DNA from: Strigomonas culicis
Lineage: Eukaryota > Euglenozoa > Kinetoplastea > Trypanosomatida > Trypanosomatidae
DNA length: 33,496 nucleotides
NCBI GenBank assembly: GCA_000482145.1
Contig: AUXH01000158.1
Coordinates: forward strand, 1-33,496
Direction: 5' to 3'
A program made the position numbers and the translations under genes. Position 1 is the stretch's first letter, and every line of letters begins with the position of its first letter. The notes under the pieces are model-generated. The model made no database searches and was not told the DNA's origin. It was given only the letters and a program-made list of their open reading frames with translations. Of the stretch, positions 1,188-24,221 are shown one piece after another.

Positions 1188-1228
1188 GGCGCTCGGCCTA
1201 GTGTTTTTCTTTTTTCTTTTCTGTGTAT

Positions 1229-1266
1229 CTAGACGGGGAAGGAGTAGAGAGAGAGAGAGGTGTGGG
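1229..1266 (-). promoter_or_regulatory. Spliced-leader trans-splice acceptor for the RING ligase gene
   Basis: On the minus strand a CT-rich tract (complement of 1231-1266, made of CT repeats and a CTCCTTCCCC block) ends in GTCTAG. The acceptor AG is the complement of 1229-1230. It would leave a 5' UTR of about 41 bases before the ATG at 1187. A polypyrimidine tract followed by the first AG is the standard kinetoplastid trans-splicing signal, and such tracts also direct polyadenylation of the upstream gene, here the DNA-PKcs gene. Confidence 0.55.
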
Positions 1267-1409
1267 ATAGAGAGTCGGGTAATAGATGACAAGGTTGCGG
1301 TGACAGAACAGTACTACCATCGAACACTCTCAATAGAAATAGTACGTACATCACTCTGAACACACTTGTTATCATATCAGTGGGCACGCTTACCCCATAA
1401 TAGGCAACA

Positions 1410-3110
1410 TCAAAAAAGCGGTTGCCAGCCTGCATAACAACGGCCCAGGATGTCATCCGACGTAGCGAGACGGAGCAAGCGCTGTACAAAGATGGACTCT
1501 TGGGCGTCCTCCCCTTCACCACCGTCGATCTCCTCCACAGCCTTTGCAACTACCTTCTCGATCGCCTCGCGCGCAATCGGTGTGAGGCTGCGGTTTTGCC
1601 GCAGGTCACTTTGGAGGATGCGGCACGGGTGCTCCAGCTGCAGTTTCCGCCGCACCGAGCGCACGCGCAGCTCCGCCGTCTGCGCGAGCTGCGCGGGGCC
1701 GGCCGCCGCCCGCCAGTGCTCGAGCGGCTCCTGTGCGAAGGCGGAGGCAATGCTCTCCACGACGGTCCGGCACTCGCGCAGCACGTGCAGGACACGGCCC
1801 ATCGGCGCGGCGGTGACGGCGTCCCCCAGCGCCCCCAGCGCCCCTTGGATCTGCGGCGTCAGCCGAAAGGGCACCAGCTCCGGCACCGGCAGCGCGTAGG
1901 TCGCCGAGCCAAAGGCGTGCCCAAAGTCGATGCTGACCAAGTCGCCCGTGCCCGTGTCGACCAAAAAGTTGGACAGGTGGCGGTCGCCGATCCCGAAGAG
2001 GTAGGACGCGATGGACAGCGTCGCGTGCGTGCGTTGGAAGCGCGTGCGCACCTCGTAGGCACCACGGCGGTCGGCCGCAATATCATGCAGGGCCTCTGTC
2101 AGGCACAGCGGGTCGATGCCGCGCACCAAGTTGCGGTACCACTCCGCCACACCAGCGCTGCGGTCGTCCGTGTAGCTGCTCACATAACTCTCTTGGTTGC
2201 GGTACCGCTCTCTGTACTGTTGAGTGCGAGGATCGTTCGCGATGCTCTCGCCGCAGCCCCGCCGCACCATCCCCGCGTTGATGGTCTCGTTGATCGTCGC
2301 CGTGCGTGGGACCCACTCCACCAAGCCCATCTGCCGTGAGGCCGGCACGACCGAGTAGGTGCGCAGGTAGAGGTGGCTGCTGCCGGCGTGGGCCAGAAAG
2401 CGGCTCAGCAGCATGAAGAACTCCTGCACCCGCTGGTCCATGCGCAGGTCGTCGCCGCCCTTCACGAGCACCACCAGCGAGCGCTGCGTCGTGTGGAGCA
2501 CGAGGCGCTTCGGGCGCTGCAGCGACGCCAGCGCCCGCACGATGGGCGCGGCCCCGATGATGTGCTCGGCGGCCGCCGGCCGCGGCTGCAGCCACATGAT
2601 GGGCTGCACGGGCGGCTCCAGCGGCAGCAGCCCATCCGCCGCGCCGCTCAGGTTGCCGTGGAGCAGCGCCGCCAGCCGCGCCGAGTAGCGCTCCAGCGTC
2701 GGCGCGGTCTCAGCGGGCACCATCCGTTCCAGCTCCCTCACCACGGCGAAGGCCAGACGAGACAGCTGGGCGTAGTCCGGCAGCAGGCGGCCGTCGGGGC
2801 ACAGACGGGCCACATAGGGGGCCGCTTTGTGCGCAAAGTTCAGCGTCACCGACTCGGCCGTGTCCACCCCCTTGACGTCAACACACGAGGCGTGGAACCG
2901 GAAGAAGATGGCCTGCGCCTTGTCGTAGTGCACCCGCGTCTGCGGCTCGGCGGGCTTGTACAGTGACAGCTCGCTCAACACACCCTTGATCGCATCCTTA
3001 AAGCGCAGCAACGGGTCGTGCAGCTTTGGTAGACACTGGGCAAAGATATGCACGCGCGCGAGGCGCTGATTGCCCTCCAGCGCCTCGCGCATGCCCTCCA
3101 AAAAAAGCAC
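1410..3110 (-). CDS. PRKDC: DNA-PKcs C-terminal part: end of FAT, PI3K-like protein kinase domain, FATC (frame +1 relative to the N-terminal part)
   Basis: This open frame is the direct continuation of the large upstream ORF. No convincing ATG separates the two; the first in-frame triplet after the last stop that could initiate is GTG. It holds a complete PIKK catalytic core. There is a DNA-PKcs-like LQRPKR strand, a KGGDDLRMDQR nucleotide-binding segment, the catalytic loop GIGDRHLSNF (Asp and Asn near 3820 and 3825 in joined numbering) and the activation segment IDFGHAFGSAT (Asp near 3839), followed by LPVPEL and PFRLT. The stretch GHAFGSAT / LPVPEL / PFRLT is characteristic of DNA-PKcs rather than ATM, ATR or TOR. 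The extreme C-terminus is a FATC domain with DDILGRCYAGW, resembling the NILGR-x2-EGWE end of the vertebrate protein. All catalytic residues are present, so the kinase is expected to be active if translated. The stop is TGA at 1410-1412. Confidence 0.93.
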   Translation of the reverse strand: MLFLEGMREALEGNQRLARVHIFAQCLPKLHDPLLRFKDAIKGVLSELSLYKPAEPQTRVHYDKAQAIFFRFHASCVDVKGVDTAESVTLNFAHKAAPYVARLCPDGRLLPDYAQLSRLAFAVVRELERMVPAETAPTLERYSARLAALLHGNLSGAADGLLPLEPPVQPIMWLQPRPAAAEHIIGAAPIVRALASLQRPKRLVLHTTQRSLVVLVKGGDDLRMDQRVQEFFMLLSRFLAHAGSSHLYLRTYSVVPASRQMGLVEWVPRTATINETINAGMVRRGCGESIANDPRTQQYRERYRNQESYVSSYTDDRSAGVAEWYRNLVRGIDPLCLTEALHDIAADRRGAYEVRTRFQRTHATLSIASYLFGIGDRHLSNFLVDTGTGDLVSIDFGHAFGSATYALPVPELVPFRLTPQIQGALGALGDAVTAAPMGRVLHVLRECRTVVESIASAFAQEPLEHWRAAAGPAQLAQTAELRVRSVRRKLQLEHPCRILQSDLRQNRSLTPIAREAIEKVVAKAVEEIDGGEGEDAQESIFVQRLLRLATSDDILGRCYAGWQPLF

Positions 3111-6100
3111 ACATGAGTCGCTTGGTGGGGTCTGCTCTTGTCTTGGCGTATATGGCGTCCAGCTCTTCCTTCACACACCGGTAGGGGTAGTAGACGGACT
3201 GGGGGTGGTCCTGGGCGAGTTGGTACAGGATCTGCGCCGCGAACGCGTGCTCGGTGCGCAGCAGCGCGCTGAGGAGCTGCGATATCCACGGGAGCCAGAC
3301 GTCCGACGGCAGCGCCGCCATGTCCGCGAGGAGGCCCTCCCACACGTCGTCCGGGAGGCCGAAGACCCCTGCCTGGAGGCGATCGAGCAGCAGCAGCAGA
3401 TGCGGCACGTAGAAGATGGGCGCCACGCACCCGTTCCGGCTGTGCGGCAGCGTAAGACCGTAGTGCGCCGTGCAGCGGAGGAACGTCTCGGCCAACAGCC
3501 GCCAGCATCCCTCCACCTCCACGGCGCACGTGTGGACCTCCGGGTAGAGGGACAGCACGCGGTCGACGACATCCAGCAGACGCAGCGCGCTGCCCTCCCC
3601 GTCCTCGTTGGCGGACAGGTACTGGAGGTCCTGCAGCGTCTCGCCCGCGGCGCGCGGCGGCACAGCCGGCCGCTGCAGGTCCAGCCGCAGACCACACATG
3701 GCGTGGTCGCGGCGGGCGAGGGCCTGCGCGCGGGCGGGCAGCAGCGCCGCCTTCTGCATGACGGCCTCGAGCGCCTCCCGCGGACGCGCGCGCAGCCACT
3801 GGGCTCCGGCGGCCACACGGTAGAGGTTCGCACGCAGGGCGGCGCTCCGGATGCTCTCCCGCACGGCATCGCCCACATCCCCTGCGCCGCTGCGGGCGGA
3901 CAGCGACAGCACGGCGGTCAGCAGCTGCCGCACCGCGCCGTTCTGCGCCGCGTCGCTCAAGAGGCCGTCGCACCGCTCCGCCAAGAAGCGCACCTCGGCC
4001 ACGTGGCACTCCGCCCGCAGCTCGCGCGCGTACTCCGGCGGCAGCCTGCCCTGCAGGCCGCGGCCGAAGAGGTGGCGCTCGAAGGACTGCTGCACGAGGG
4101 CCACGTCGTCCACCAGCCGCGCGCTCGTCAGCAGGGCGCCGCGCGTGAAGGTGGAGAGGAGGCCCCGCACCTCCTCGACCGCTGTCAGCTGCTCCTCCGA
4201 CACAAGGGTGAGCGCCTTTGCGCACCGCAATACAACGTACAACTTGTACGCGTCCACAAAGCGCGACGCGCCGCTCGCCGCGCGGTGCGCCGGCCGGCAC
4301 AGCAGGCGGGACAGGCCGTCGTGGATGAACTGCTCGCAGTCCCGATAGCGGCCCTCGTTCAGGAGCAAGACGCTCCACTCGAAGGGGTACTGCGCGCGCA
4401 GGGCTGCCTGCGGGACGGCGCGGTCGCTCAGCACGCGTGCGGCGCTATCCGGCTCGCAGCGCAGCGCGGCAGGGAGGAGCAGCGCGACGTCCTGCAGCCG
4501 ACTGTCTGGTGCGGCGTTGAACGAGTCCCACACATCCGACCACTGCAGCAGGGACGCGCAGGCGAGTCCGCGTTGGCGGTTGAGCGTCGCGTAGGCATAC
4601 CGAGCGTCTTCGCTGTCCACCGCCGCGGCAGCGTGCTGCTGCAGCCACTGCTGCAACAGCACAATGCCGTCGCTGAGCCCCCCGGACCTGGCGCGCCAGC
4701 GTACTTCCGTCAGGAGCTGCACCTCGGGCCTCCCCAAGACGTGCTTGATCGCCTCCCCTGCCTTTTCCGTGTCGCGGAGTAGCTCGAAGGCGTCGCTCAG
4801 CGCGCGCCACCGGAAGCCCGGTGGCATCGGTTCCGCTGCGCCGGCGCGCTCCGCGCGCTGCAGGTGCAGCATGTCGAGCACATGAACCGCGGCATTCGCG
4901 GCCTCGTGCGCGTGATCGGCCGACAGGAGACCTTTCCGGCACGGCTCCAGCAGCGCGTCGACCTGCGCCGCGTCCAACCGCCCTCCCATCTCCGTGAAGA
5001 GGAGCAGCAGCTCCATGTTGAAGCGGAGGTCGGTCTGGCCCGCCTGCTCGACGCTTCCGGTGATGGCGGAGACGAACGCTTGAAGCGGCGCGTGAGGTCC
5101 GTTGGACGCCCCGGGCCGCGCGTCGGCCCAGCCCCCCGCGTGGCGAACGAGCTCCATCATCAGCGGCGTGCACACGAGCGATGCCAGTTGCGGGTCGTGG
5201 AGACACAGCGCCTGGAGGGGCGTCACAAGCGCCTGCAGCGGGACCTGGATGTCCGGCACATCGCCCGCGCGGTACCGGCGGAAGATGATCTCCTCTCTCG
5301 TCTTGCGCAGCTCCCGCTGCCGCTCCCGCTCCAGCCGCAGCTGCTTCTGCCTGGCAGACGCACTCATGTACTTCAGCGCGCGCACCTCCGTGGGCATCTC
5401 GCGGAGCTGCCTGGACAGGGATAGGGGCGGCTGGCTGGCTGCCGTTGTGGCGTCATCGCTGCGGGAGAAGATGAGCGAGGAGTGCAGCTCGACCGGCGCG
5501 ATCGCCATGCTGTAGCTGGTGAACTGCGCCACCTGCGTCGGCGGTGCCAGGGAGTGTGGGAGCGCGCGTCCCTTCGGGATAGCAAACTGCGGCCGAGCGG
5601 GCGCGGCCGCCCCGCGCTCCGCTCGGCTACTGGCCCCCTGCGCTGGGACGTAGCACTGGCTGGCGGTGGGGAAGACAAAGGGGGAAGGGGCGGCCGCCAG
5701 ACCCCCCTCCTCGGCTTGCGAGAAGAGCGGTGTCATCCGGTCGACGCTCTGAGCTCGACTGGGCTGTAGGGTCTTTTCTTCGTACGTGCAGTCGCCGAGA
5801 GGGTTTGGGAAAAAGTACTGGTTGCTTGCGAACTCCGAATCACGGTGGCACAGCGACAGCAGAAGCACCGCGCAGTGCCGCGGCCAGCTGCACGCCACTG
5901 GGGAGAACTGAAGGAGCTCTCGCAGGCGCTGCGATGGGTCAGGGCTCAGGTACGCCGTGTCCATGTACTCCAGCACAATATTTTGGACGAATGGGAAGGA
6001 GTCTTGCAGTCCCCTCTCAACGAGGAGCTGTAGGAGGTGGTCATGTCTGCCGTATCGCCTGAGCGCGGCCACACAGCATTGGAAGAAAGCAACACGGCAG

Positions 6101-9100
6101 TCCGTGTTGATGTGCAGGGAGTCGAGTGTTTCCGCCGTCAGGAACGCGCTTGTCACCCGTTCGGCTCCGTCATTAGCGACGTGTGGTATGAGGGCTGCTA
6201 GGAGTTTTAGGAAGTGCACTTTGACTGCATCATCGTACCGATGGAGTGCCCCTGCAAACTGCACCAGTACCGTGTCATACATGGCCGCTGCTTTCGCAGG
6301 TGAGCCGGCCAGTATCTCCATCACCATCATTTGGTCACCCGGAGACAGCCCTGTGAAATTGGTGAAGAGCCCGTTGGATAGAAACACCTCCACCGCCGCC
6401 TCGTCCCACGTCTGAACGGTCTTCACGACCTTCAGCAGGAGAGAGAAGCGCTCCCTTCGCAGGGATTCCACGGCGTGCTGCATGGCGTTGCACAGCTCTG
6501 TCTGCAGCCCGCCGCTGTCCTGCGCTCGCAGCGCGCGGAGCTCCATGGCAAGCGTCTCGCTGACCGCCAGCGCGCAGTGGGGCGCCGCGTGCGCGACGAG
6601 CCGCGCCAGTTCGGCGTACAGTCGGAGCACGTCCTCCCGCGCGCCGAGGGCGGCAAGGGGCGTGCCCTCGTCCACGACCGCGGCGCACATCTGGCAGAGG
6701 GCCTGCGTCTGCGAGTCGTTGCCTCGCCGCGCCTCCACCAAGGCGGTCAGGTCCGCCACGGAGAGACACGGCTGTGCCTTCACGTGGGCGTACAGCTTCT
6801 TGAACAGCTCCACGTTGTAGCGCAGGACGTAGGTGGAGTCCGTGCTGGGGACGGCGCACAGAAGGAAAGCCATCATCCGCCTCGCAAGGCCGCTGTCGGT
6901 GGTGAGGCTGCCATCGGCGAGCCAGTCCAGCAACGCGTGCAGGACCTCGCGGGCGACATAGTGGAGCTGAGAACCTAGCGAGGGATCGCATGCGACGGAA
7001 AGAAGGGGGGCCGCTAGCCGTCCCGCGAACGCACGGAAGAAAGACGACCGCAAAATAACTAACCTCGCCCACACCAATCGGACTTCCAGCAGGAGGGCGT
7101 CGGACGACAGCAAGGCCACCACCTCCTGCACCCACGCCGGAGCATCGCGGCCGCCGGTGCCGGTGCTGCTGCCGTGCTGGCCCGCGCTGCTGCACGGCTT
7201 GGCGATGAGAGAGTCCAGGAGCGAGAAGAGGGCGCCGGAGCAGGTGCTGCGCCAGATGGGGTCCACCAACACGCGCCGGCCGGGGGCGGCCGCGGGTCCA
7301 CCGTTGCCACGCGACGCCTGCATGGTCTCCCGCACGCCAGTGTCCATCCCAAGCGCAAGCGTGGCGGCGAGGCCTCTCGCCATGGATGCCTCAGTGGGAT
7401 GTGGCTTCTCAAACGGTTTGCTTCGCGTGACAGTGCTTTCTTTTGGCCGGCGGGAGAGCTCCCACTCACTGTACTTCTTCGCGTCCGCTTCCGAGATGCG
7501 CGAGAAGGACACTTCCACTGGGAGGACAGCGGCGTTCGTACATACGATACTATTCCAGTTCTCTGTGTTCTTACTGTCGAGCAACAGCTTGACGAACACC
7601 GCCTCGTTGTCCTGTGTCGCCATGAGAACCGCAGCGAGGCACCGATAGGCGACCTGACGATACTCGATCGCCTCCTCACTTTTGTTCGCCACGTCATGCT
7701 GCCGTGCGCTGCCGCACACTTTGATCATTTTGACCGTCAGTTCCTTCCCGGTGCCCGTCTGCGTCCCGCCCAAAAAGGCGTCGTTAATCGGTCCCTTCAG
7801 CACCTTCTGGTCGAGCAGCTTGTAGGCCGCCTCCAGAAGAAGGAGGGCGTTGCACTGCTGAAAGCACGTGACCTTAACAGGCACCTCCGCCTGCTTCACC
7901 CACACCGGCACGTTCCGTTGGAAGAAGTCGATCTGTGCGTCCCCCGGAAGCGAGCGCAGCAAAGGCAGCAGGATGCCGTACGTGGCGGCCCACCACAACG
8001 GCTGCGGCAACCCCGACCGGTGCAGCGCGGTTGTCTCGTCACACAGGCGCACAAGCGAGGCGGTGTCGACCTCTCGCAGGGCTGCACTGACGGTGGTCGA
8101 GAGGAAATCGCCCTCTGGGAAGTCCGTCATCGCGATCAGAGGAAGCAACATGAACGTGCTCGACACATCGCATGGGATGATGACGCGCAGCATGGAGACC
8201 ACCGCATGCACAACCTTGTGATAATTATCACTCGTCGATGTTTCGGGTGTCAGTTCTCTCCAATCAAGCGGCACCTCATTGTCGAGCACATACTTGGCAA
8301 TCTGCACACCGGCCCTCACGAATGTGGTGACATTCTCGCACCCGTGCTGTCGCTCGACCTTCTGCAGTGCGGCACACACCACTTCCGAAACACGGAGAAG
8401 CATGTCCGTAATGTAGCGCTCTGAGAGCAGTTTGTACTTGGCCCCCGACCAGTGTTCGGAGCTGGCAGACTGGAGCAGGAAATCCACCACACGCGCACAC
8501 ACTTCCGTGGAGATGCAAGCCACGCATTGGTCAATCTCAAAGAGCAGCTTGAGGACATGCAGCTTGAAAGCGACCACAGCTGGCACCGCGCGGGAGCTAG
8601 AGGGGACAGGAAGAAGGACCTCGCAACACTTGGACAGGTGAGAGCCAGCCGCCTCTGTCGCGACAGCCGGACGTCTTTGTAGTTCCTGGAGGAGCGCGCA
8701 GAGACTCTGTGCCGCCATGTCGTGTTCCGCTATCCATGTCGCCTTACCGCTCTCTTTTTCCAGTTCTTCATCTTCTTCGTTGCTGCATCGGTCTGGTACG
8801 CTCTCTATATGCTCCACCATTCTCACCGGCAGCACGTCCAGAAAAGCACACAAGCAGTCACGCGAAGCGGTGGCAAGTGCCACTTGAAACTGCTCCACAA
8901 AAATGCCGACATTGACCGAAAACTCAACCTGTCTGTTGAGATCGGCTGTCTCGACAGGTAGATTGAATGCTGCATCCAGCAGCAATGTAGGGGGGAAGTC
9001 AAGAGCGAACACCAGCGTAAGGAGTGACAGCAGTACCTTCTTGTCATTGAACTGACGACCAAGATCGCTCTGCCACAACAGACCGCCCACCGCCTGGCAG

Positions 9101-12100
9101 AGGAGAGAAGCAATATGCGAACCACCCCCCTTCATGCGCACCACCTCCGACCATACGCTTGGGGCCGAAGGGCCTCTTGCAGAGAAGCGCGTGAGACCAC
9201 ACAGCACCTGCAGGCCGTCGCACACGTGGTGGGGATCTGAACGGTAGGCACGTAGCCACTCGTCCGCCGTTGTGGAGGAGCTAATCAGCAAGTAGGGAGG
9301 CACCAGCTGCGTCATCGCCTCGATGAAGTCAGAAAAACAGCTTTCTTGTCGTCCACTCGGAAGCTGTCGCACCATTGTGCAGACACACTGCGCTAATGCC
9401 GCCTTGCTATCCTCACCATTGTTGCTGATACTGTCCGACGTGCCATCGTACGCCGGTGACGCCAGGAGGAGCCGCGCGAGCACAGACAGCTCTTGCCTAT
9501 CCAGCAACGAGCTGCACTTGTCGTCCGCAGTGCCGTAGGCGGAGAGAAACCGACTCAGGCTATGGCCGAAGCGCTGCAGCCTCGCGCGCTGCTGGCCGTT
9601 GTGCTCGTCGTCGCGCACGCGGCGCAGCACCTTCGCGATATTGGACAGTGTGTCCTGCAGCAGTGGTGCTCCATGCGCACCTTCCGTGCCACTGCGTGGG
9701 CGTTTGGTGCCGGCCGCCTGGCACGACTCCGCGTTCTGCTGAAGGGCCCCGTAGAGCACCATGGCCGCAATGGCGCCGTCGACGTCCGCATCGTCCGCGC
9801 GGCGGGCCCCGGCCGTGGCAGGCTCGCAGAGAGCGGCGTGGAGCATTTGGACCCACTCCCGCTCCGCGCGGTCCGCCTCCGCTGCACCGCCGGGGCGCAG
9901 CTGGCTGATCGAAGCGGCCAGGCGAACGAGGGTGGCGGCGGCCGCCGGGTGATGGGGCGCCACCGCAGCGGCCGCGCGTGCTGTCTCGGCCAGTAGTTGG
10001 CGCGTTTCCTCCGCGTGGGCGGGGTCGCCGAGGTGGGCCTGGGTGCTGCGGGCGCCGGCGCTCGCCTTCGAGTGCACGACGGTCTCCATCACATGCGCGC
10101 AGAGGGTGAGCTCTGCAATGATGCCCAGCTCATCGTACAGCATCTCACGCGCCGTCTTCTGCAGCGACGTCATCACCGAACAAAGACAGTGAGGGATGGC
10201 GGAAACACTATGCCAGATGCGCTCGCCCACGATGGCCTCCAAATACTGATGCAGTGCACCAGCGGCGCCTAGCCGTGGCCACGGCGCGTCGGCGAGGAGT
10301 TTCGCGTTCAAGACACTCATCACCTGAGCGATGGCAATGTTGCTTTGCTGTCGGTTTTGGATTTTCTCACACCCGCAGATGTACTCCAGCAGACCCTCTG
10401 TCGCTGTCCGGCGAAGTGCGGCATCTTCCGACTCCAGTAGCGCGAGGAGAGACCGCGTGAAGCCATCCGCGCTGGGCTTGCCCGAAAACCAGCGTGCACA
10501 CATCAAGAGTAAGTCGTGGAATAATTCTTGTGCCACGGATCTTTCTGCGTTCGCTGCGAGGCGAATGACGGCGGGAAACACATCGCTGTACCATTCCGTC
10601 TCCTTATCCTTATAATTACCAATTGTCCACACCACAATAAAGTGAAAGAGTTCTGCCGCCGTCGTAGCGGTTGTCTTGTCACCATGGAAACATAGTTCAA
10701 CGACGCGAGAGAGCAGTCCATGCACAGGGAAGTGAATCTTCATGGGTGGGAGTGCAAGTGGAAGTGCACAGTCGCGAACCTTCCACTGCGGCTGACCACC
10801 GCCAACACCGACCTGCGCCGCGAGAGGAGCGCTGGAGGGTGGCGCCTCCAGTGCAGCGCATTGGCATCCCGCTTCACCTTCAACTTGGCGAGCGATCCGC
10901 ATACCGCACTCCGCCGCCATCGCACAGAGCTGCTCCTGGGCTCCCGCCTGCATGGCGGTCGTGCCGGCGAGCAGCTGCAGAATGACATCAGCGGCGAGCG
11001 CGGGCCGCGCCTGCACCCAGCGACGCAGGACACTCAACGCAATGGTCACGTTTTCTCCCACTTCCTGGATGCGGGATACCAGTGTTCCGCCATCTGCTGT
11101 CACGACAGTTAGAAACAGCCGTCCCAGCTGCGCATGCTGGAGCTCCTGCACCTCCAGCTTATCGGCCAGCACAATGACAAGAACACCACACCGATAGAGC
11201 AACTCCTCTGTGTATATGTGTGATCGGTACAGACAGGACTCCGCGTATGCCGCACAGATAGACCGCTGCGAGTCGCTAAGGAGCTGGACGCAGCGCGTCG
11301 TCCACAGCGTGGTCGACAAGAGCTGGAGGAGCCCCGACACATGAGGGTGCCGCCGCGACGCCTCCACGAGTTGGACTGCCCACTCGGTGAGCTGCGAGGC
11401 GTCACCCGATGGGGCTGCACCATCGCCTTCCGGCGTGTCTTCGTCTGCTTCCGCATAAGATGCCGCGCCGCACGCACACCAGAGAGAGGGCAGTACGGTG
11501 GCTTGGAAGGAGACAAAATGGAGGAAGTAGGCGTACTCCCCGGGTGCGCGCGGCTCCGCGTCCAGCGAGCGGTTGACCACCTCCTGTAGCGCCACGCGGC
11601 GGCCGCTCGACCTGGACACCACGGCGAGGTCCGCGTGGGCGACCACCTCCACCGACACCGACTGCATGCTCATCTGCAGGAGCTGCAGGGCAGCGCCGCA
11701 GTCCACCGTGTCCCAGGGGTAGCCCCACTTCTCGCCGGGGGAAAGGAAGGACTCCGACTGCAGAATACTGTTCCAGAGCCGTGCGTAGAGCGCAACCGTC
11801 TCCCCCTCCGCCCCTTGCGTGCCCTCCACACTGGGCTCCTCTCCCCCATCCCCTGCGCAGGGGTCGGCCGCGCGCCGCACGGGCGCCAGCAGCTGCAGCG
11901 ACCTTCGGCAGAAGTGCATCGTGAGGTCTGTGCGGCACGGGTGGCGCGAGAGGGCCACGAACAGCTTGAGAAGCGAGGGCACCGTCACCACACGAAGGCG
12001 GTCGAAGAAAAACTCATGGGGGTACAGCACCAGCGTGGCCTCCAGCAAGGTGCGCACCGCCTCCACCCCCACACGGTCGACCGAGTCCATCTCCAAGAGG

Positions 12101-13443
12101 AAGCACGCAAAGGCGGTGAGCAGCTGTGGAATAACCCGCGCCACGTCCTCGCCGCCCGGCGCGCGGGCGATCGCGGCGGCGAGCATCGTGTCACTCCGTC
12201 CGCTGATCTCCGCAAAGTAGGCGCGGATGGCGGACACACCGAAGCGCACGTGGATGGGACGCGCCATGTAGCCGAAGGCGACAAGTGCGAACATGATGTG
12301 GCCGTGCCCGGCCTCGGTCGACTGCACCGTGGCCTTCAGGTCCTCGAGCAGGCGGGCGAGCAGTTCGCCTGCTGGGCACCGCTGGCCGGCCGCGGGGGGC
12401 GCCACCGCCACTAGCTGGCGCGACAGCGCCCGGAAGAAGCTGGCGGCGGCCGGGTACGACTCGCGGTGCACGTCCGCGTTCTTGTGCACCCATAGCCTCT
12501 GCAGTATGCCGAAGTAGCTGTCAGCGTCCGCTAGGATGCACTCCGCCAGAGTTGTGTCCGCGTGCACGCGCAGAAAGAGCAAGGCAGCTTTACAGAACCG
12601 ATAGTTGGAGCTGCTATCCGCCAAGAGCAACGCATTCTTCAGCATCTGATGCACCAAAATGACGCTCTGCCGTTGGCTCGCATCGTCATAGTTACGTGGA
12701 AAGGAGACGAGGAAGTCTGTCAAGCCGATGAAGAAGCCCTCCCCCACGGACTGCGCGGCCTGAGCTTCCGCCGTCAGCTTCTTCGCCACTGACATGAAGC
12801 AGAGGAACATGCGGGCCTCGTGTTGTACCACGTCCGCGGGAAAGGTCTTGGCGAGTATACCCATCAGTTGTAGCGCCACGCTCTTGAGGCGCTGCCCGGT
12901 GGAGAGGGCCTTCCCACATATCTCCACACACCTGTCAATCACCTCGGTGCTTTGCAAGTCTGTCGCACGAAGGACAGGGCGCGTGTCCGCGGCGTGCAGC
13001 AGCTCGCGCAACACCCACAAGCACTCGGACTGCACCTCCTTGCCCTTGTCATAGCGATACAGGACGAGAAAGGTGCTCCACACGGCGCTGACCACGCGAC
13101 CCAGTTGGTCGCGTGACGCACTCGACAGCGAAAAGATCGATAGGATGGAACTCAAAAGAGAGACCGCGCTCTTCAGCACCTTGGCATCCGCTGCATCCCC
13201 CGTGATGCAGCCATCGCGCACCAGCGAAATAACAGCGAGGAGGGTCCCTGTGCTTGCGCCCTCACTGCCACAAGCGATACGGTAGACTGCCTGCGCAGCT
13301 GCCTGGCTATCGCTGGGAATATCAGTGAGATTCTTCTGTATGTTTTCCAAAAGAATAGAAACATCTGCGTTTGACATTCTCCCAATGACCGTTGGAATGT
13401 ACTTCATATCCGAGTCAATTTTCCGAAGCGTCTCAGAGAACAT
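2998..13443 (-). CDS. PRKDC: DNA-PKcs N-terminal part: HEAT-repeat solenoid, YRPD motif, FAT region
   Basis: This is the catalytic subunit of DNA-dependent protein kinase, the Ku partner that bridges and regulates double-strand break ends in non-homologous end joining (nucleus). It starts at ATG 13443, about 73 bases after a splice-acceptor AG. Residues 1 to about 2500 are alpha-helical HEAT-like repeats without other domains. Residues about 2570-2670 form a low-complexity loop with SQ/TQ sites at 2575, 2595, 2636 and 2670, where vertebrate DNA-PKcs carries its ABCDE autophosphorylation cluster. YRAGDVPDIQ at 2724-2733, followed by VTPLQAL, matches the DNA-PKcs-specific YR-x-GD-x-PDIQ block and sits at nearly the same residue number as in human. 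The FAT region follows. Homology breaks at a T7 run (complement of 3100-3106); beyond it this frame gives about 35 unrelated Arg/Ala-rich residues before a stop. Joined length would be about 4010 residues, against 4128 in human. The gene is very GC-rich, most of all in its 3' half. Confidence 0.93.
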   Translation of the reverse strand: MFSETLRKIDSDMKYIPTVIGRMSNADVSILLENIQKNLTDIPSDSQAAAQAVYRIACGSEGASTGTLLAVISLVRDGCITGDAADAKVLKSAVSLLSSILSIFSLSSASRDQLGRVVSAVWSTFLVLYRYDKGKEVQSECLWVLRELLHAADTRPVLRATDLQSTEVIDRCVEICGKALSTGQRLKSVALQLMGILAKTFPADVVQHEARMFLCFMSVAKKLTAEAQAAQSVGEGFFIGLTDFLVSFPRNYDDASQRQSVILVHQMLKNALLLADSSSNYRFCKAALLFLRVHADTTLAECILADADSYFGILQRLWVHKNADVHRESYPAAASFFRALSRQLVAVAPPAAGQRCPAGELLARLLEDLKATVQSTEAGHGHIMFALVAFGYMARPIHVRFGVSAIRAYFAEISGRSDTMLAAAIARAPGGEDVARVIPQLLTAFACFLLEMDSVDRVGVEAVRTLLEATLVLYPHEFFFDRLRVVTVPSLLKLFVALSRHPCRTDLTMHFCRRSLQLLAPVRRAADPCAGDGGEEPSVEGTQGAEGETVALYARLWNSILQSESFLSPGEKWGYPWDTVDCGAALQLLQMSMQSVSVEVVAHADLAVVSRSSGRRVALQEVVNRSLDAEPRAPGEYAYFLHFVSFQATVLPSLWCACGAASYAEADEDTPEGDGAAPSGDASQLTEWAVQLVEASRRHPHVSGLLQLLSTTLWTTRCVQLLSDSQRSICAAYAESCLYRSHIYTEELLYRCGVLVIVLADKLEVQELQHAQLGRLFLTVVTADGGTLVSRIQEVGENVTIALSVLRRWVQARPALAADVILQLLAGTTAMQAGAQEQLCAMAAECGMRIARQVEGEAGCQCAALEAPPSSAPLAAQVGVGGGQPQWKVRDCALPLALPPMKIHFPVHGLLSRVVELCFHGDKTTATTAAELFHFIVVWTIGNYKDKETEWYSDVFPAVIRLAANAERSVAQELFHDLLLMCARWFSGKPSADGFTRSLLALLESEDAALRRTATEGLLEYICGCEKIQNRQQSNIAIAQVMSVLNAKLLADAPWPRLGAAGALHQYLEAIVGERIWHSVSAIPHCLCSVMTSLQKTAREMLYDELGIIAELTLCAHVMETVVHSKASAGARSTQAHLGDPAHAEETRQLLAETARAAAAVAPHHPAAAATLVRLAASISQLRPGGAAEADRAEREWVQMLHAALCEPATAGARRADDADVDGAIAAMVLYGALQQNAESCQAAGTKRPRSGTEGAHGAPLLQDTLSNIAKVLRRVRDDEHNGQQRARLQRFGHSLSRFLSAYGTADDKCSSLLDRQELSVLARLLLASPAYDGTSDSISNNGEDSKAALAQCVCTMVRQLPSGRQESCFSDFIEAMTQLVPPYLLISSSTTADEWLRAYRSDPHHVCDGLQVLCGLTRFSARGPSAPSVWSEVVRMKGGGSHIASLLCQAVGGLLWQSDLGRQFNDKKVLLSLLTLVFALDFPPTLLLDAAFNLPVETADLNRQVEFSVNVGIFVEQFQVALATASRDCLCAFLDVLPVRMVEHIESVPDRCSNEEDEELEKESGKATWIAEHDMAAQSLCALLQELQRRPAVATEAAGSHLSKCCEVLLPVPSSSRAVPAVVAFKLHVLKLLFEIDQCVACISTEVCARVVDFLLQSASSEHWSGAKYKLLSERYITDMLLRVSEVVCAALQKVERQHGCENVTTFVRAGVQIAKYVLDNEVPLDWRELTPETSTSDNYHKVVHAVVSMLRVIIPCDVSSTFMLLPLIAMTDFPEGDFLSTTVSAALREVDTASLVRLCDETTALHRSGLPQPLWWAATYGILLPLLRSLPGDAQIDFFQRNVPVWVKQAEVPVKVTCFQQCNALLLLEAAYKLLDQKVLKGPINDAFLGGTQTGTGKELTVKMIKVCGSARQHDVANKSEEAIEYRQVAYRCLAAVLMATQDNEAVFVKLLLDSKNTENWNSIVCTNAAVLPVEVSFSRISEADAKKYSEWELSRRPKESTVTRSKPFEKPHPTEASMARGLAATLALGMDTGVRETMQASRGNGGPAAAPGRRVLVDPIWRSTCSGALFSLLDSLIAKPCSSAGQHGSSTGTGGRDAPAWVQEVVALLSSDALLLEVRLVWARLVILRSSFFRAFAGRLAAPLLSVACDPSLGSQLHYVAREVLHALLDWLADGSLTTDSGLARRMMAFLLCAVPSTDSTYVLRYNVELFKKLYAHVKAQPCLSVADLTALVEARRGNDSQTQALCQMCAAVVDEGTPLAALGAREDVLRLYAELARLVAHAAPHCALAVSETLAMELRALRAQDSGGLQTELCNAMQHAVESLRRERFSLLLKVVKTVQTWDEAAVEVFLSNGLFTNFTGLSPGDQMMVMEILAGSPAKAAAMYDTVLVQFAGALHRYDDAVKVHFLKLLAALIPHVANDGAERVTSAFLTAETLDSLHINTDCRVAFFQCCVAALRRYGRHDHLLQLLVERGLQDSFPFVQNIVLEYMDTAYLSPDPSQRLRELLQFSPVACSWPRHCAVLLLSLCHRDSEFASNQYFFPNPLGDCTYEEKTLQPSRAQSVDRMTPLFSQAEEGGLAAAPSPFVFPTASQCYVPAQGASSRAERGAAAPARPQFAIPKGRALPHSLAPPTQVAQFTSYSMAIAPVELHSSLIFSRSDDATTAASQPPLSLSRQLREMPTEVRALKYMSASARQKQLRLERERQRELRKTREEIIFRRYRAGDVPDIQVPLQALVTPLQALCLHDPQLASLVCTPLMMELVRHAGGWADARPGASNGPHAPLQAFVSAITGSVEQAGQTDLRFNMELLLLFTEMGGRLDAAQVDALLEPCRKGLLSADHAHEAANAAVHVLDMLHLQRAERAGAAEPMPPGFRWRALSDAFELLRDTEKAGEAIKHVLGRPEVQLLTEVRWRARSGGLSDGIVLLQQWLQQHAAAAVDSEDARYAYATLNRQRGLACASLLQWSDVWDSFNAAPDSRLQDVALLLPAALRCEPDSAARVLSDRAVPQAALRAQYPFEWSVLLLNEGRYRDCEQFIHDGLSRLLCRPAHRAASGASRFVDAYKLYVVLRCAKALTLVSEEQLTAVEEVRGLLSTFTRGALLTSARLVDDVALVQQSFERHLFGRGLQGRLPPEYARELRAECHVAEVRFLAERCDGLLSDAAQNGAVRQLLTAVLSLSARSGAGDVGDAVRESIRSAALRANLYRVAAGAQWLRARPREALEAVMQKAALLPARAQALARRDHAMCGLRLDLQRPAVPPRAAGETLQDLQYLSANEDGEGSALRLLDVVDRVLSLYPEVHTCAVEVEGCWRLLAETFLRCTAHYGLTLPHSRNGCVAPIFYVPHLLLLLDRLQAGVFGLPDDVWEGLLADMAALPSDVWLPWISQLLSALLRTEHAFAAQILYQLAQDHPQSVYYPYRCVKEELDAIYAKTRADPTKRLMCAFFGGHARGAGGQSAPRARAYLCPVSTKAARPVAAL
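3100..3106 (-). other. Homopolymer frame-break in the DNA-PKcs gene (T7 on the coding strand)
   Basis: Reading the minus strand, the N-terminal frame enters a run of seven T after GC. Conserved sequence continues only in the +1 frame, so the run is one T too long (or two too short) for an uninterrupted protein. Both sides are conserved DNA-PKcs sequence. A homopolymer length error in the assembly is the simplest explanation; a genuine mutation, allelic difference, or +1 ribosomal frameshift at the T run are alternatives. Confidence 0.85.
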
Positions 13444-14641: not shown

Positions 14642-15892
14642 TTACTTCCTGGCCTGGGCCAGCTCCACCGCGAGCTTGGCGCCCGTCTCGAAGTCCGGCA
14701 CGGGGTGCACAGCCATGCCGCTGTCGCTGAGGATCTTCTTACCCTCGTTCTCGTACGTGCCGTTGAGGCGGACGATGATGGGCACATCCGTCTTGAGCGT
14801 CTTGCAGGCGTTGACGACGCCCTCAGCAATGATGTCGCAGCGCATGATGCCGCCGAAGATGTTGACCAGGATGCTCTTCACGTGGGCGTCGCCTAAGATG
14901 ATCTGGAAGGCAGCCACAATCTGCTCCTCCGTGGCGCTGCCGCCGACGTCGAGGAAGTTGGCGGGGCTGCCGCCGTGCAGGGAGATGAGGTCCATCGTCG
15001 CCATGGCGAGGCCCGCGCCGTTGACGAGGCAGCCGACGTTGCCCTCGAGCGCGATGTAGTTCAGCTCGTGCTTCGCGGCGAGCACCTCCTTGGGGTCGAT
15101 CTGGGACTCATCGATCAGATCGAAGATCTCGTTCTGGCGGAAGTGCGCATTGTCGTCAAAGCTGAGCTTCGCGTCGATCTCCATGACGTCGCCGTTCTCG
15201 AGCTCCACAAAGGGGTTGATCTCCACCATGGTGCAGTCCTTCGCCTTGCCGATGTTGTAGAGGACCTTGATCTGGTCCGCCGCGCGCTCCGCAACAGTGC
15301 CGGTGAATCCAAGCTCCTTCGCGTATGCCACGCACGCGTCGTTATCGATGCCCTCGGCGACGTTGATCTTCATCGTCTTGATCTTCTCGGGGTTCGTGTG
15401 CGCGAGCTCCTCGATGCCCATACCGCCCTCGGCGCTGCCGACGAACATGGGGGAGGCGCTCTTGCGGTCGAGGACGAGGGAGAGGTACAGCTCGCGCTTG
15501 ATGCCGGCGACGGCCTCGGTCACGTACACGGTGTTCACGTGCTGTCCCTTGGGGCCCGTCTGCTGCGTGATGAGCGTGTTGCCGAGCATCGCCTTGGCGC
15601 TGGCGACGGCCTCCTGCGTGTCCTTGCAGACCTTCACACCGCCCTTGAGGCCATCCACGAAGTGGCCCTTACCGCGACCGCCGGCAAGGATCTGGGACTT
15701 GACGACCTTCTGGGGGGTCTTGATCTTGGCGCAGGCGGCCTCGACCTCCTCCACAGTCGTGCAGGCAATGCCGAACTCCACCTTACCGCCGTTGTCCTTC
15801 AGGATGCGCTTGGACTGGTACTCGTGGATGTTGAAGAAGCGGCGCTGCACCTGAGTGCACTTGGGCTGAACAAGACGGGTAAAGCGTTGCAT
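14642..15892 (-). CDS. Succinyl-CoA ligase (succinyl-CoA synthetase) beta subunit, mitochondrial
   Basis: This 416-residue protein has the normal length of the family. It is the beta subunit of the TCA-cycle enzyme that converts succinyl-CoA to succinate with substrate-level phosphorylation; in trypanosomatid mitochondria it also works with acetate:succinate CoA-transferase to make ATP. Residues 1-20 are basic and hydroxylated with an RRFF end, a typical mitochondrial presequence. The mature protein then starts with the family hallmark NIHEYQSK. An ATP-grasp domain follows with the glycine-rich AGGRGKG segment, then the metal-binding EINP motif, and a C-terminal CoA-ligase domain with VNIFGGIMRCD. 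The coding region is much more GC-rich than its flanks and uses C- and G-ending codons heavily, as expected of a highly expressed gene. Nucleotide specificity (ATP or GTP) cannot be told safely from sequence alone. Confidence 0.96.
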   Translation of the reverse strand: MQRFTRLVQPKCTQVQRRFFNIHEYQSKRILKDNGGKVEFGIACTTVEEVEAACAKIKTPQKVVKSQILAGGRGKGHFVDGLKGGVKVCKDTQEAVASAKAMLGNTLITQQTGPKGQHVNTVYVTEAVAGIKRELYLSLVLDRKSASPMFVGSAEGGMGIEELAHTNPEKIKTMKINVAEGIDNDACVAYAKELGFTGTVAERAADQIKVLYNIGKAKDCTMVEINPFVELENGDVMEIDAKLSFDDNAHFRQNEIFDLIDESQIDPKEVLAAKHELNYIALEGNVGCLVNGAGLAMATMDLISLHGGSPANFLDVGGSATEEQIVAAFQIILGDAHVKSILVNIFGGIMRCDIIAEGVVNACKTLKTDVPIIVRLNGTYENEGKKILSDSGMAVHPVPDFETGAKLAVELAQARK

Positions 15893-19686: not shown

Positions 19687-22518
19687 TCAAAGGTATAAGG
19701 AAGAGGCGAACACAATGTCGCGCTTGATGAGTTGAATTCCTTTTAGAAACTTATCATGCAGATCCATGCTGCCAATCGCAGGAGATCGTGCGGCGGCTGC
19801 CAACTGACGCAGCATCTCCTCTAGGCGTCGCATCATGCGTACAATCTCACCCTCGTACGCGGAGGTCTTGCTGACAAGGTCCACAAACTTGGCACCCTTC
19901 GCCCAGAGGTAGGTGATCTCCATCAGAGACGGCATGACACGGTCCGCGTAGTTGCTTTGCTGAGACAGGCCGCTCTCCACGCTCACCGTGGCAATGCGCG
20001 TGACAATTTCATTGAGTTCCTTCAGGGGCTGCTCGAACTCCTGCGGCAGAGAGAAGCCCTCTGGCGTCCGGTGAACGTTAACGAGACACGAGAGCAGTGC
20101 AACAATCATCTCCGTCTCCATGGGATTGAGAATACCCTTAAACAAAAGCTCTGTCAAGAGAATTTCGTTTTCATCCGTGGTGGTAATTTCGCAAGCCACA
20201 CGAGCCTTGCGGAGAATAATGTTATCCTTGTCAATGTAGTCCAAACGCCGCAGCACGCGCATCATCTGCTTTAGTTCCTCCGAAAAGACGGCGCGCCGCA
20301 TACTCTCCAGTTCGTCCACGACCGTCTGGAGTTGTTTGTCCAGCTCGTCCTTCAGTTTGTACTGCTCGAACGCCGCTTGGAGTTCCGCGGTGGGTTTCTT
20401 GACAAGTTCATTCTCCTCCAGTTGCTTCTCCAAGTTGGTTACTTGACTCTGTAGCTTGGTGAGCTGGGGGTCATCAATGCCCATCTGCGCAGCGGTCAGC
20501 GCGGGCACCTTATCCTCGCCAAATTGCTTGTTGAGCCGCGACAGGGTCTGCACGATCTGCACGCGTCCCTGCTCCGAGTCTGGCTGAGCGGGCAGATTGC
20601 ACTTGAGCGTGGACAGTTTATCCACATCACAGAAATCAAATACAACCGTGTAGAGGTCCGCGGCGGACGACGTGTAGCTTTCCACATGGCACGGCGAGAG
20701 GGACTCATGCGTCGGCCCGTCCACCTTCATGCAGATGACAGACACAGTGATGGAGAAGCTGCTGGGGTCGGTGACGGCGGAGGTGACGGTCTTCGCGGCG
20801 AAGGATCGGCAGATACCCCATCCAAAGGAAACGCGGTCGGATGAGCGGATAATGTGCACGAAACGACCCGGCTGCACCCACGTCTTCATGTGCTTGGGCT
20901 GCTTGAGAACGGCGTTGATGTCATCCGTGCGCTTCGCGATGAGGTCGCGGCAGCGGATGTACTGACGAAAGACCTCTTCCTTTTCTACACTGATAGAGTT
21001 TATTCGCTTTTCCAAGACATCTCTTTTTTCTTCCAAGATGGGCTTGTCTTTGAGGCGCTGGAACTGGGCAAAGCTTCGCTTCATCATGAACTCGGGATCC
21101 ACGTCCTCCACGCGGAGTAGGTTGAGCACCATGTTGTAGGTGAGGTGGAAGCTGCTCAGCAGGACGTCTGCGCCGCCGCTGGTGACCTGCTTCAGCGTAT
21201 CCGGTTCAACTGCCTCATCTACCATGGCAATGACGACGCCCACTCGGTCTAGGCCTCGCCGGCCGGCGCGACCGGACATTTGGATGTACTCGCCGCCGGT
21301 GAGATAGCGGTTGTCCTCTCCATCGAACTTTTTAACAGACGTGAACACCACCGTTCTAGCAGGCATGTTCAGCCCCATAGAAAAGGTTTCGGTCGAGAAG
21401 AGCACCTTCACTAGCCCAGCTTGAAAGAGAATTTCAACCACTTCCTTGAGAATAGGAAGAAGACCGGAATGATGAATGCCGACGCCGCGCCGCAGAAGGG
21501 GCAGCAGGTGTTCAATGGCGGGCAGCTTCCTGTCATCTTCGCCGAGAGACTCCATGGCGTTGTTAAACACCTCGGTCACCAGGGCGTCCTCCTCGGTATT
21601 GTTGAAGTTGAGTCGCGACAACGCTGACGCATTGCGCTCGCACTGTACTTTGGCAAAGGAAAATACAATGACAGGATACATATTCCGATCCATGACGAGT
21701 TTGATGATCTCCATCATAGAGTCGTTGCGTTTCAGTGCACTCTTTTGATTTCGGCTGCGCTCAGTGCCCCCTCCTCCCGCCCCTCCTCCTGCTGCCGACG
21801 TGTCTGCGCCCATGGAAGACATTGCTTTGCCAAAATTGTCATCTCGGAATTTGCCCTTTTCGTCCACAATGAGAAATATGCCGTCAGCTCCTGAAGGATA
21901 AATGTAATGCTGCAACGGGACGGGGCGGTAGTCGGTGTGTATGACGTGTACCTTGGTGGTGGTATGAATACTCTCAACCCAGTCAGCAAACTCACGTGCA
22001 TTGGGGATGGTGGCGGAGAGGAACACGTACTGGCAACCATCTGGGAGAAGACTGATCGTCTCCTCCCACACAACACCACGAGACTTGTCGCGCATGTAGT
22101 GCACCTCATCGAACACAACGCATCCGACCTCACGCAGCATTTCTGTCCCACGGTACAGCATACTTCTGAGAATTTCCGTCGTCATGACGAGACAGTCCGA
22201 GTCCGTTTTAATAGTGGTATCGCCGGTCATGAGACCAACGGAGTCAAATTTCTCTGAAAACTCACGAAATTTTTGATTGCTCAAGGCCTTGATGGGTGAT
22301 GTGTAGATAACTCGTTTCTTTTCCCGCAGCGCCTTCGCTATAGCGTAGAGGGCCACTGTCGTCTTGCCAGCGGAGGTGTGTGCGGAAACGAGGACACTGT
22401 CTCCGTCTTCCAAAGCATCAATACTGCTCTTCTGAAACTGATCTAGCTCATAGGGAAATTCTAAGGCCGGGCTGGTTTCCCTTCTTGGCCGTTTTCTAAC
22501 TTGCGCAATCTCAGCCAT
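19687..22518 (-). CDS. MTR4: MTR4 / Ski2-like RNA helicase of the nuclear exosome
   Basis: This 943-residue DExH helicase unwinds substrates for the nuclear RNA exosome (TRAMP-type surveillance, rRNA and snoRNA processing). In order: a short N-terminus; RecA1 with motif I AHTSAGKT (46-53), motif II DEVH (137-140) and motif III SAT (168-170); RecA2 with ETFSMGLNMPA and QMSGRAGRRG; a long central insertion from about 520 to 790 corresponding to the arch/KOW region; and the C-terminal ratchet bundle ending in KRDIVFASSLYL. The last segment matches the near-invariant end of MTR4 and separates it from SKI2. It is about 100 residues shorter than yeast or human MTR4, mostly because the N-terminal low-complexity region is missing. 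A Gly/Ala/Ser linker (about residues 246-258) interrupts the region between the RecA domains. The exosome core subunit RRP41 lies two genes upstream. Confidence 0.95.
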   Translation of the reverse strand: MAEIAQVRKRPRRETSPALEFPYELDQFQKSSIDALEDGDSVLVSAHTSAGKTTVALYAIAKALREKKRVIYTSPIKALSNQKFREFSEKFDSVGLMTGDTTIKTDSDCLVMTTEILRSMLYRGTEMLREVGCVVFDEVHYMRDKSRGVVWEETISLLPDGCQYVFLSATIPNAREFADWVESIHTTTKVHVIHTDYRPVPLQHYIYPSGADGIFLIVDEKGKFRDDNFGKAMSSMGADTSAAGGGAGGGGTERSRNQKSALKRNDSMMEIIKLVMDRNMYPVIVFSFAKVQCERNASALSRLNFNNTEEDALVTEVFNNAMESLGEDDRKLPAIEHLLPLLRRGVGIHHSGLLPILKEVVEILFQAGLVKVLFSTETFSMGLNMPARTVVFTSVKKFDGEDNRYLTGGEYIQMSGRAGRRGLDRVGVVIAMVDEAVEPDTLKQVTSGGADVLLSSFHLTYNMVLNLLRVEDVDPEFMMKRSFAQFQRLKDKPILEEKRDVLEKRINSISVEKEEVFRQYIRCRDLIAKRTDDINAVLKQPKHMKTWVQPGRFVHIIRSSDRVSFGWGICRSFAAKTVTSAVTDPSSFSITVSVICMKVDGPTHESLSPCHVESYTSSAADLYTVVFDFCDVDKLSTLKCNLPAQPDSEQGRVQIVQTLSRLNKQFGEDKVPALTAAQMGIDDPQLTKLQSQVTNLEKQLEENELVKKPTAELQAAFEQYKLKDELDKQLQTVVDELESMRRAVFSEELKQMMRVLRRLDYIDKDNIILRKARVACEITTTDENEILLTELLFKGILNPMETEMIVALLSCLVNVHRTPEGFSLPQEFEQPLKELNEIVTRIATVSVESGLSQQSNYADRVMPSLMEITYLWAKGAKFVDLVSKTSAYEGEIVRMMRRLEEMLRQLAAAARSPAIGSMDLHDKFLKGIQLIKRDIVFASSLYL

Positions 22519-23504: not shown

Positions 23505-24221
23505 TTACACACTTGCCTCCAGTGCTTTTTTTATCTGCTCATCAAAAAGTACTTTGGCAGACTTTTTTGCGCTCTCTAACAGCTGCGACAGCACATCAGG
23601 TGATATGCGGCCCGCAGTCTCAAACCATACGATGTTATCTGTATTATGTCCTGTAAAAGCTACGGACAGTACGGAGCACTGAGATCGCAGCTCATCGGCA
23701 GTGAGGTCTATGAGGATATGATTATCTAGACTGGCGGCATTGAGGCAGCAAACAGCGTCACGCATTGCGACGTTGGCATCCACCAACGCTAGGCACGCTG
23801 CATTGATGGCAGCAATTTTTTCGCTCCCATCGTTCTGCAGTATTTCAACAGATATGTGTATTTGAGATCCCGGATACTGTGACAAAAGCACAATGGAGCG
23901 TACTACTTGCACCACCGCACTACTTATCTCTTCCGATTGTATGGTCTGGCGCTGTGCAGCTCTGCGTCTCTCACCCGCGAAAGCAGCAATGGCAACTTCA
24001 CACGTCACAGCCACTTGGTCGTATTTGGCTTCTTGACGATTTGTGGTTTCACGGGGTCCCAAAACAGTCGCACACACTTTTGATTTTCTGCTTGTTACGG
24101 TACAGCTTCCGTCACAAGCGGCCATCGTACCGAATTCGATGTTCACTTGACGAGTCTCTGGGGGCCTACGACCGTCTTTCCTCAGACCAGCAGAGCTGAC
24201 ATACTCCACATGCCTGGACAT
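23505..24221 (-). CDS. RRP41: Exosome core subunit RRP41 (RNase PH-like)
   Basis: This is a 238-residue protein of the expected length. It opens with the RRP41 signature RKDGRRPPETR at residues 14-24, and FGTMAACDGSCTV and KVCATVLGPRE follow. The two-part RNase PH fold is complete, with RRRAAQ and a hydrophobic core strand QIHISVEILQNDGS in the middle, and AACLALVDANVAMRD in the second half. RRP41 is one of the six ring proteins of the RNA exosome, working in 3'-5' processing and decay of rRNA, snoRNA and mRNA in nucleus and cytoplasm. In eukaryotes the ring itself is usually catalytically inactive and RRP44/RRP6 supply activity. The ORF begins directly at its ATG after an AT-rich leader. MTR4, the helicase partner of the nuclear exosome, is encoded two genes downstream. 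Confidence 0.93.
   Translation of the reverse strand: MSRHVEYVSSAGLRKDGRRPPETRQVNIEFGTMAACDGSCTVTSRKSKVCATVLGPRETTNRQEAKYDQVAVTCEVAIAAFAGERRRAAQRQTIQSEEISSAVVQVVRSIVLLSQYPGSQIHISVEILQNDGSEKIAAINAACLALVDANVAMRDAVCCLNAASLDNHILIDLTADELRSQCSVLSVAFTGHNTDNIVWFETAGRISPDVLSQLLESAKKSAKVLFDEQIKKALEASV

Follow-up and report, generated by a model that had tools for sequence, protein, structure and literature searches.

A DNA-PKcs gene in a trypanosomatid draft genome that also carries Ku80 and DNA ligase IV genes

After analyzing the window, which is the whole of one contig (33,496 bases) of a draft genome of 17.7 Mb in 670 contigs, we assigned the gene of about 4,000 codons at positions 1410-13443 of the minus strand, which runs in two overlapping frames, to DNA-PKcs; judged by its sequence, it is a real member of that family. 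The weight of this find comes from its company: the kinase gene, a tail-bearing Ku80 gene and a ligase IV gene are all present in one draft genome. We put at roughly two in three the probability that Ku80, DNA-PKcs and ligase IV work as an end-joining set that was inherited from a kinetoplastid ancestor and lost piecemeal elsewhere. The loss of end joining has been used to explain trypanosomatid genome features and gene editing, and a trypanosomatid with DNA-PKcs, a Ku80 apparently able to bind it and ligase IV would provide a direct test case for the pathway.

The DNA-PKcs gene and its relatives

The original prediction had read an intronless DNA-PKcs from this DNA, with the correct extent and strand; "intronless" fits, as no interruption was seen apart from one frame break. 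The features of the gene are as follows.

2998..13443, (-): first DNA-PKcs reading frame, 3,481 aa, with the HEAT solenoid (N-terminal), the middle domains and part of FAT
11749..13077, (-): DNA-PKcs_N (PF20500), residues 123-565; Pfam E 4.5e-26, 91.6 bits, cut-off 26.1
7543..7977, (-): DNAPKcs_CC3 (PF08163, NUC194), best stretch, residues 1823-1967; Pfam E 5e-14, 52.5 bits, cut-off 28.9
5149..5391, (-): DNAPKcs_CC5 (PF19704), residues 2685-2765; Pfam E 1.9e-15, 56.7 bits, cut-off 25
5245..5274, (-): YRAGDVPDIQ motif, starting at residue 2724; the snake DNA-PKcs P0123 has YRQGDLPDIQ
3100..3106, (-): stretch of seven T, read as A on the plus strand; site of the reading-frame change, left as assembled
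1410..3110, (-): second DNA-PKcs reading frame, 566 aa, with the end of the FAT region, the kinase and FATC
1710..2471, (-): PI3/PI4-type kinase domain (PI3_PI4_kinase); Pfam E 1.1e-38
1968..1994, (-): catalytic loop GIGDRHLSN, second frame
1920..1928, (-): DFG of the activation segment, then HAFGSATYALPVPEL, second frame
1416..1487, (-): FATC, second-frame residues 542-565; Pfam E 3.5e-5, 23.9 bits, below the cut-off of 25.3

Homologous sequence occupies about residues 1-3,440 of the 3,481 in the first frame. The kinase core is intact, with GxGDRHxxN and DFG both present; its activation region reads GHAFGSAT then LPVPEL (as GHAFGSATYALPVPEL), and the C-terminal end, ILGRCYAGWQPLF, aligns to the ILGR...GW end of human DNA-PKcs. 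The YRAGDVPDIQ motif, the activation-region motifs and the C-terminal ILGR end all lie where they had been predicted. A chance ORF is excluded by a frame of 3,481 codons in DNA of about 57-70% GC together with a third-position GC of 0.65-0.93 in 12 of 12 blocks (up to 900 bases each) of that frame. An SQ/TQ cluster of the kind phosphorylated in the human protein did not reach significance: the 120 residues upstream of the YRAGDVPDIQ motif hold 4 such sites, a count matched in 0.35 of 2,000 shuffles, and the same test on the snake DNA-PKcs gave 0.07. The ATG is preceded by a long polypyrimidine tract (by eye), which looks like part of a trans-splice acceptor. A predicted model of the kinase half was set aside at a mean pLDDT of 35.6. 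The next gene downstream is a frame at 3-1292 (-) that the contig end truncates, and its CAICLETF...CAHLFHD looks by eye like a RING-type zinc finger; Pfam gave zero matches on 1-918 (-), a different frame from the longer one there.

The DNA-PKcs identity was borne out by the three family-specific Pfam domains, by structure-database scores and by phylogeny. Of the 143 PDB sequences that the kinase frame matched at E <= 0.001, human DNA-PKcs scored best, at 158 bits, ahead of mTOR (115), ATR (105), SMG1 (98), TOR2 (94) and ATM (86). In a kinase tree of 11 rows (the window kinase, eight other kinases of the same genome and two of three DNA-PKcs homologues), the window kinase pairs with P0121 of Novymonas esmeraldas at 100/99 and the pair then joins the snake DNA-PKcs P0123 at 98/97. 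The genome's own TOR, ATR-like and ATM-like kinases fall apart from this group, as the original prediction, which had set phylogeny as a check, expected; the tree holds one vertebrate reference and no SMG1 row, and its ATM-like and ATR-like rows drew long-branch warnings. The lipid kinases, pieces and weak matches numbered L009 and L012-L016 were omitted from it, as was P0122, which has 2,819 residues and no kinase domain. Along the solenoid, blastp matches between the window protein and both P0121 and P0123 are collinear.

A search of 5.8 billion proteins, which detects only relatives sharing exact words and had no Leishmania proteins among its matches, returned three relatives of the first 3,440 residues: Novymonas P0121, the metagenome protein P0122 and the snake P0123. 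P0122 (2,819 aa, on an 18.8-kb contig) matches solenoid residues 32-1069 and 1835-1966, with no Pfam match and no kinase part, and is probably a further DNA-PKcs, cut or broken. The PIKK genes found in the genome include four of TOR type (three with an FRB domain), one ATR-like gene, one ATM-like gene and one DNA-PKcs, where the ATR-like and ATM-like labels are based on HEAT_ATR scores, frame length and appearance rather than on a reference tree. The ATM-like kinase (L010, G000:C13:44003-44824) sits in an open frame whose 5,019 codons come close to the 4,905 aa given for L. major ATM in a passage of PMC6161909.

Ku80, ligase IV and a putative end-joining set

The Ku80 gene lies on a separate contig (L001) and encodes Ku_N, Ku and Ku_PK_bind (2.6e-17, Pfam). 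Its product aligns with residues 42-729 of the 732 of human XRCC5 (111 bits over the whole length), and this alignment includes Ku_PK_bind and the acidic end EEDEDILDLI(S). The acidic C-terminal tail of human Ku80 binds DNA-PKcs, and the Ku80 of this genome looks able to do so as well, a prediction from the conserved end.

Five ATP-dependent ligase matches were found in the genome: ligase I, ligase III, ligase IV and two neighbouring small ligases, which we take to be of the mitochondrial k-alpha/k-beta kind. The ligase IV gene (L039 with L044, G000:C7; ORF of 1,145 aa) scores 304 bits to human LIG4, compared with 150 to LIG3 and 114 to LIG1. It has the ligase N-terminal, adenylation and C-terminal domains and the first BRCT, and its alignment to human LIG4 extends as far as chain residue 780, taking in part of the XRCC4-binding linker (PF11411), for which the Pfam score of 17.2 bits is below the cut-off of 22.1. 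A ligase tree of 28 rows (25 of 37 listed proteins plus three of the genome's own) joins this ligase IV at 100/100 to nine proteins: Novymonas P0128, annotated at source as "DNA ligase-like protein"; P0125, the closest, 55% identical and on a 771-kb NCBI contig; and seven metagenome proteins. This clade of ten, presumably kinetoplastid, nests in ligase IV (100/99), and the ligase I and III of the genome fall elsewhere. Foldseek of a P0125 model (mean pLDDT 67.7) ranked human ligase IV chains first.

The second BRCT was not recognised in this ligase IV (residues 1-1,046 of 1,145 scanned, the rest by eye) or in the nine relatives, each of which has at most one BRCT-type match; in its place, the protein ends in a tail of about 200 residues, and the tail of the P0125 model is mostly at pLDDT under 50. 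This arrangement suggests that the ligase would meet its partner another way or that XRCC4 is divergent. The gene downstream of ligase IV looks, by eye, like a class I fumarate hydratase. The ligase III (L038, G000:C34:53802-54398 and flanks) scores 414 bits to human LIG3 and at most 164 to other ligases, and a frame change, seen by eye, seems to occur at six consecutive G in the BRCT-like part at its C-terminus. T. brucei is not known to have a ligase III.

The search for an end-joining apparatus in the same genome, as the original prediction had proposed, returned Ku80 and ligase IV but, in this draft, no Ku70, XRCC4, XLF or Artemis. For Ku70, four models were used (PF02735 and PF03731, which matched Ku80 only, PF03730 and TIGR00578), and PF03730 was also without a match in every control genome. 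XRCC4 (PF06632) and XLF (PF09302) gave zero matches at E <= 10, likewise in the control genomes. The sole DRMBL protein is SNM1A-like (107 bits, compared with 91 for Apollo and 36 for Artemis); many eukaryotes with end joining do not have Artemis. The draft yielded 12 proteasome genes out of an expected 14 and, by that measure, may be short of roughly one gene in seven. These absences weaken the end-joining case without deciding it. DNA polymerase X gave two neighbouring matches (L046 and L047, G000:C487:2694-4813), of which the first lies in an open frame of unusual length (1,176 codons).

Taken together, we propose a putative mechanism. Ku, whose Ku80 keeps the DNA-PKcs-binding domain and the acidic tail, would load on a broken DNA end, and the Ku80 tail would recruit DNA-PKcs. 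The kinase would then tether the ends and phosphorylate partners, and ligase IV would seal the break. The model supposes the kinase, Ku80 and ligase IV to act jointly, Ku70 and a partner like XRCC4 to be present, and breaks to be joined by this route. An active end-joining pathway in the host is likely, as far as gene content can tell.

Alternatively, a true DNA-PKcs and Ku80 could have functions other than break joining, for example one at telomeres or one in the signalling of damage, as has been discussed for Leishmania, and ligase IV could have a task of its own. A role of Leishmania DNA-PKcs in directing end joining is doubted in a passage of PMC8377203, L. mexicana Ku80 serves telomeres according to a passage of PMC8716037, and four partners are missing from the draft, as described above. 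However, this genome has ligase IV, unlike Leishmania as described, and its Ku80 keeps the kinase-binding end. We consider such a role outside joining unlikely, although it is the strongest of the rival explanations.

We return to the inherited end-joining set. T. brucei and T. cruzi are reported to be without DNA-PKcs, and Leishmania to have DNA-PKcs but not ligase IV. The set was probably inherited from the kinetoplastid ancestor and then lost piecemeal; the single clade in the ligase IV tree speaks for inheritance with several losses rather than for a regain. The original prediction had left open whether the lineage "retains (or regained)" the kinase: Ku80 and ligase IV in the same genome fit retention, and a regain finds no support in the Novymonas copies, which pair with the window gene for the kinase and share the ligase IV clade. 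Its suggestion of an ancestral NHEJ apparatus fits the same two genes. We further think it somewhat probable that several crown trypanosomatids, at least the Angomonas relative described here and Novymonas, never lost classical end joining, and that breaks in them are still sealed with the help of Ku, DNA-PKcs and a ligase IV of one BRCT. If so, the accepted claim that trypanosomatids are without ligase IV would be wrong, the losses in Trypanosoma and Leishmania would be separate and late, and the puzzle of Ku being kept in trypanosomatids would be partly a sampling matter. The carriers would also help to date the losses of end joining and offer natural comparisons within one family.

Integrity of the gene, the contig and the host assignment

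In the assembly, DNA-PKcs lacks a continuous single frame; one frame change lies between the solenoid and the kinase, and we counted it against the integrity of the gene, without bearing on family identity. The gene could accordingly be a recent pseudogene, broken at the T run. Against this real change in the assembly stand the rest of the gene, uninterrupted over about 4,000 codons, a coding third-position GC on both sides of the break and intact kinase motifs. Moreover, 3100-3106 is the only homopolymer of at least seven in the 12-kb gene, and in the same assembly ligase III, too, has an ORF that appears broken at a homopolymer, its six G; the two breaks together suggest homopolymer errors. 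A sequencing error is therefore the likeliest cause, inferred from this coincidence, and a pseudogene is improbable.

The host was placed by the MTR4 gene of the window; three genes upstream of DNA-PKcs, MTR4 among them, serve as landmarks.

14642..15892, (-): succinyl-CoA synthetase beta-type (SCS-beta; ATP-grasp_2 and Ligase_CoA), next gene upstream of DNA-PKcs; T. brucei Tb927.10.7410
19687..22518, (-): MTR4 RNA helicase, host marker; T. brucei Tb927.10.7440
23505..24221, (-): RNase PH-type exosome gene (subunit unspecified); the corresponding place in the T. brucei numbering is taken by rrp41, Tb927.10.7450

The MTR4 product is 81% identical to that of Leptomonas, 77-79% to those of Phytomonas, Porcisia and T. 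grayi, and 71% to that of Bodo. In a quick tree of 56 rows chosen from 120 listed proteins, it falls within the trypanosomatids, where its sister is a fragment from Angomonas deanei (SH-aLRT 99). The kinetoplastid origin given by the original prediction was thus confirmed and narrowed: the host is a trypanosomatid grouping with Angomonas and probably a strigomonadine (the clade name for the Angomonas group), and by MTR4 it apparently lies outside Leishmaniinae. Many unnamed metagenome relatives fall among trypanosomatids and bodonids in the MTR4 tree, and seven metagenome proteins belong to the ligase IV clade; more end-joining kinetoplastids probably exist in public data.

Eleven other genes of the window have Pfam matches, all on the DNA-PKcs strand. 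The order of SCS-beta, MTR4 and the RNase PH-type gene (at 14642, 19687 and 23505) is that of the T. brucei chromosome 10 block, with DNA-PKcs just beyond SCS-beta. The L. major gene adjoining LmjF.36.2940 is presumably SCS-beta too, which would make the place of DNA-PKcs syntenic. The T. brucei identifiers are taken from passages of PMC10593219 (Tb927.10.7410), PMC5352147 (Tb927.10.7440) and PMC3282835 (rrp41, Tb927.10.7450).

A chimeric or contaminant contig, the GC-rich part of which would not be trypanosomatid, was considered in view of a GC drop, from roughly 0.6 down to 0.2-0.4, over the stretch 13.3-13.9 kb. This stretch lies before the DNA-PKcs start codon and is an intergenic dip: GC swings of at least 0.2 between kilobases occur in 14 of 20 sampled genome stretches (the first 10 kb of the window, one of the 20, has no such swing). 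Third-position GC of the repair genes (0.78-0.94) is inside the range of the other scored genes (0.50-0.96), and SCS-beta, across the drop, stands at 0.91. Additionally, the closest kinase comes from Novymonas, a named trypanosomatid, and the ATM-like, ATR-like, DNA-PKcs, LIG1, LIG3 and LIG4 types were each found as a single gene, which speaks for one organism. We rejected this explanation on the GC pattern, the MTR4 placement and third-position GC, and consider it very improbable; the contaminant or chimera that the original prediction had allowed for did not appear, the flanking genes being trypanosomatid.

Finally, because the kinase domain is common to all PIKKs, the gene might be another PIKK resembling DNA-PKcs, a reading with hardly any probability in view of the Pfam domains, the 158-bit match, the tree and the separate TOR, ATR-like and ATM-like genes, on which ATM, ATR and TOR were rejected, and SMG1 was excluded by score (98 compared with 158 bits) and domains only.

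Comparison with known systems

Passages of earlier work describe trypanosomatids as having retained Ku but not ligase IV, which is called an "unusual combination" (PMC6635534), and a loss of Ku is reported for "jaculum". Ligase IV is stated to be absent from trypanosomatid genomes in a passage of PMC8716037, and the absence was restated for T. cruzi, T. brucei and Leishmania in 2025 in one of PMC12578213. PMC3616161 counts eight ORFs of A. deanei and seven of S. culicis under "non-homologous end-joining", and the word "ligase" never occurs in its main text. We found no report of a trypanosomatid ligase IV in the main text of the open-licence papers listed; the Novymonas and P0125 sequences are public. 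Both carriers belong to groups that house bacterial endosymbionts, according to PMC8022732 for Angomonas and PMC8406214 for Novymonas; this may be chance, or symbiont life may favour end joining.

Compared with human Ku80 (XRCC5), the protein found here shares Ku_PK_bind and the tail, but it is distant in sequence (111 bits) and its Ku70 partner was not found in the draft. The ligase IV resembles eukaryotic ligase IV in its catalytic domains, first BRCT and fold (that of its relative P0125), aligns with human LIG4 in part of the XRCC4-binding linker, at a Pfam score under the cut-off, and differs in having no recognised second BRCT. The kinase shares with vertebrate DNA-PKcs (PRKDC) the length of about 4,000 residues, DNA-PKcs_N, CC3, CC5 with YRxGDxPDIQ, the kinase domain and the C-terminus. 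In contrast to it, the window gene has no significant SQ/TQ cluster and carries a frame break in the assembly, and identity is about 20-31% in aligned pieces, with 39% over 66 residues round the YRxGDxPDIQ motif. Novymonas P0121 belongs to the same family and pairs with the window kinase at 100/99, with 37% identity in the kinase part; P0121 lacks the YRxGDxPD motif, matches neither CC3 nor CC5, and scores below cut-off for DNA-PKcs_N. On domains and motif, the window gene is the more canonical of the two.

The original prediction had taken Leishmania to be without DNA-PKcs, which is contradicted by LmjF.36.2940 (4,183 aa), reported as DNA-PKcs in a passage of PMC6161909 that assigns the kinase, among trypanosomatid genera, to Leishmania only. 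Putative DNA-PKcs has also been described in Endotrypanum and Crithidia (in a passage of PMC8377203). Compared with these three genera, taken by their published description, the host here is apparently a strigomonadine, and the DNA-PKcs described here is apparently new for its clade, though not the first in the family.
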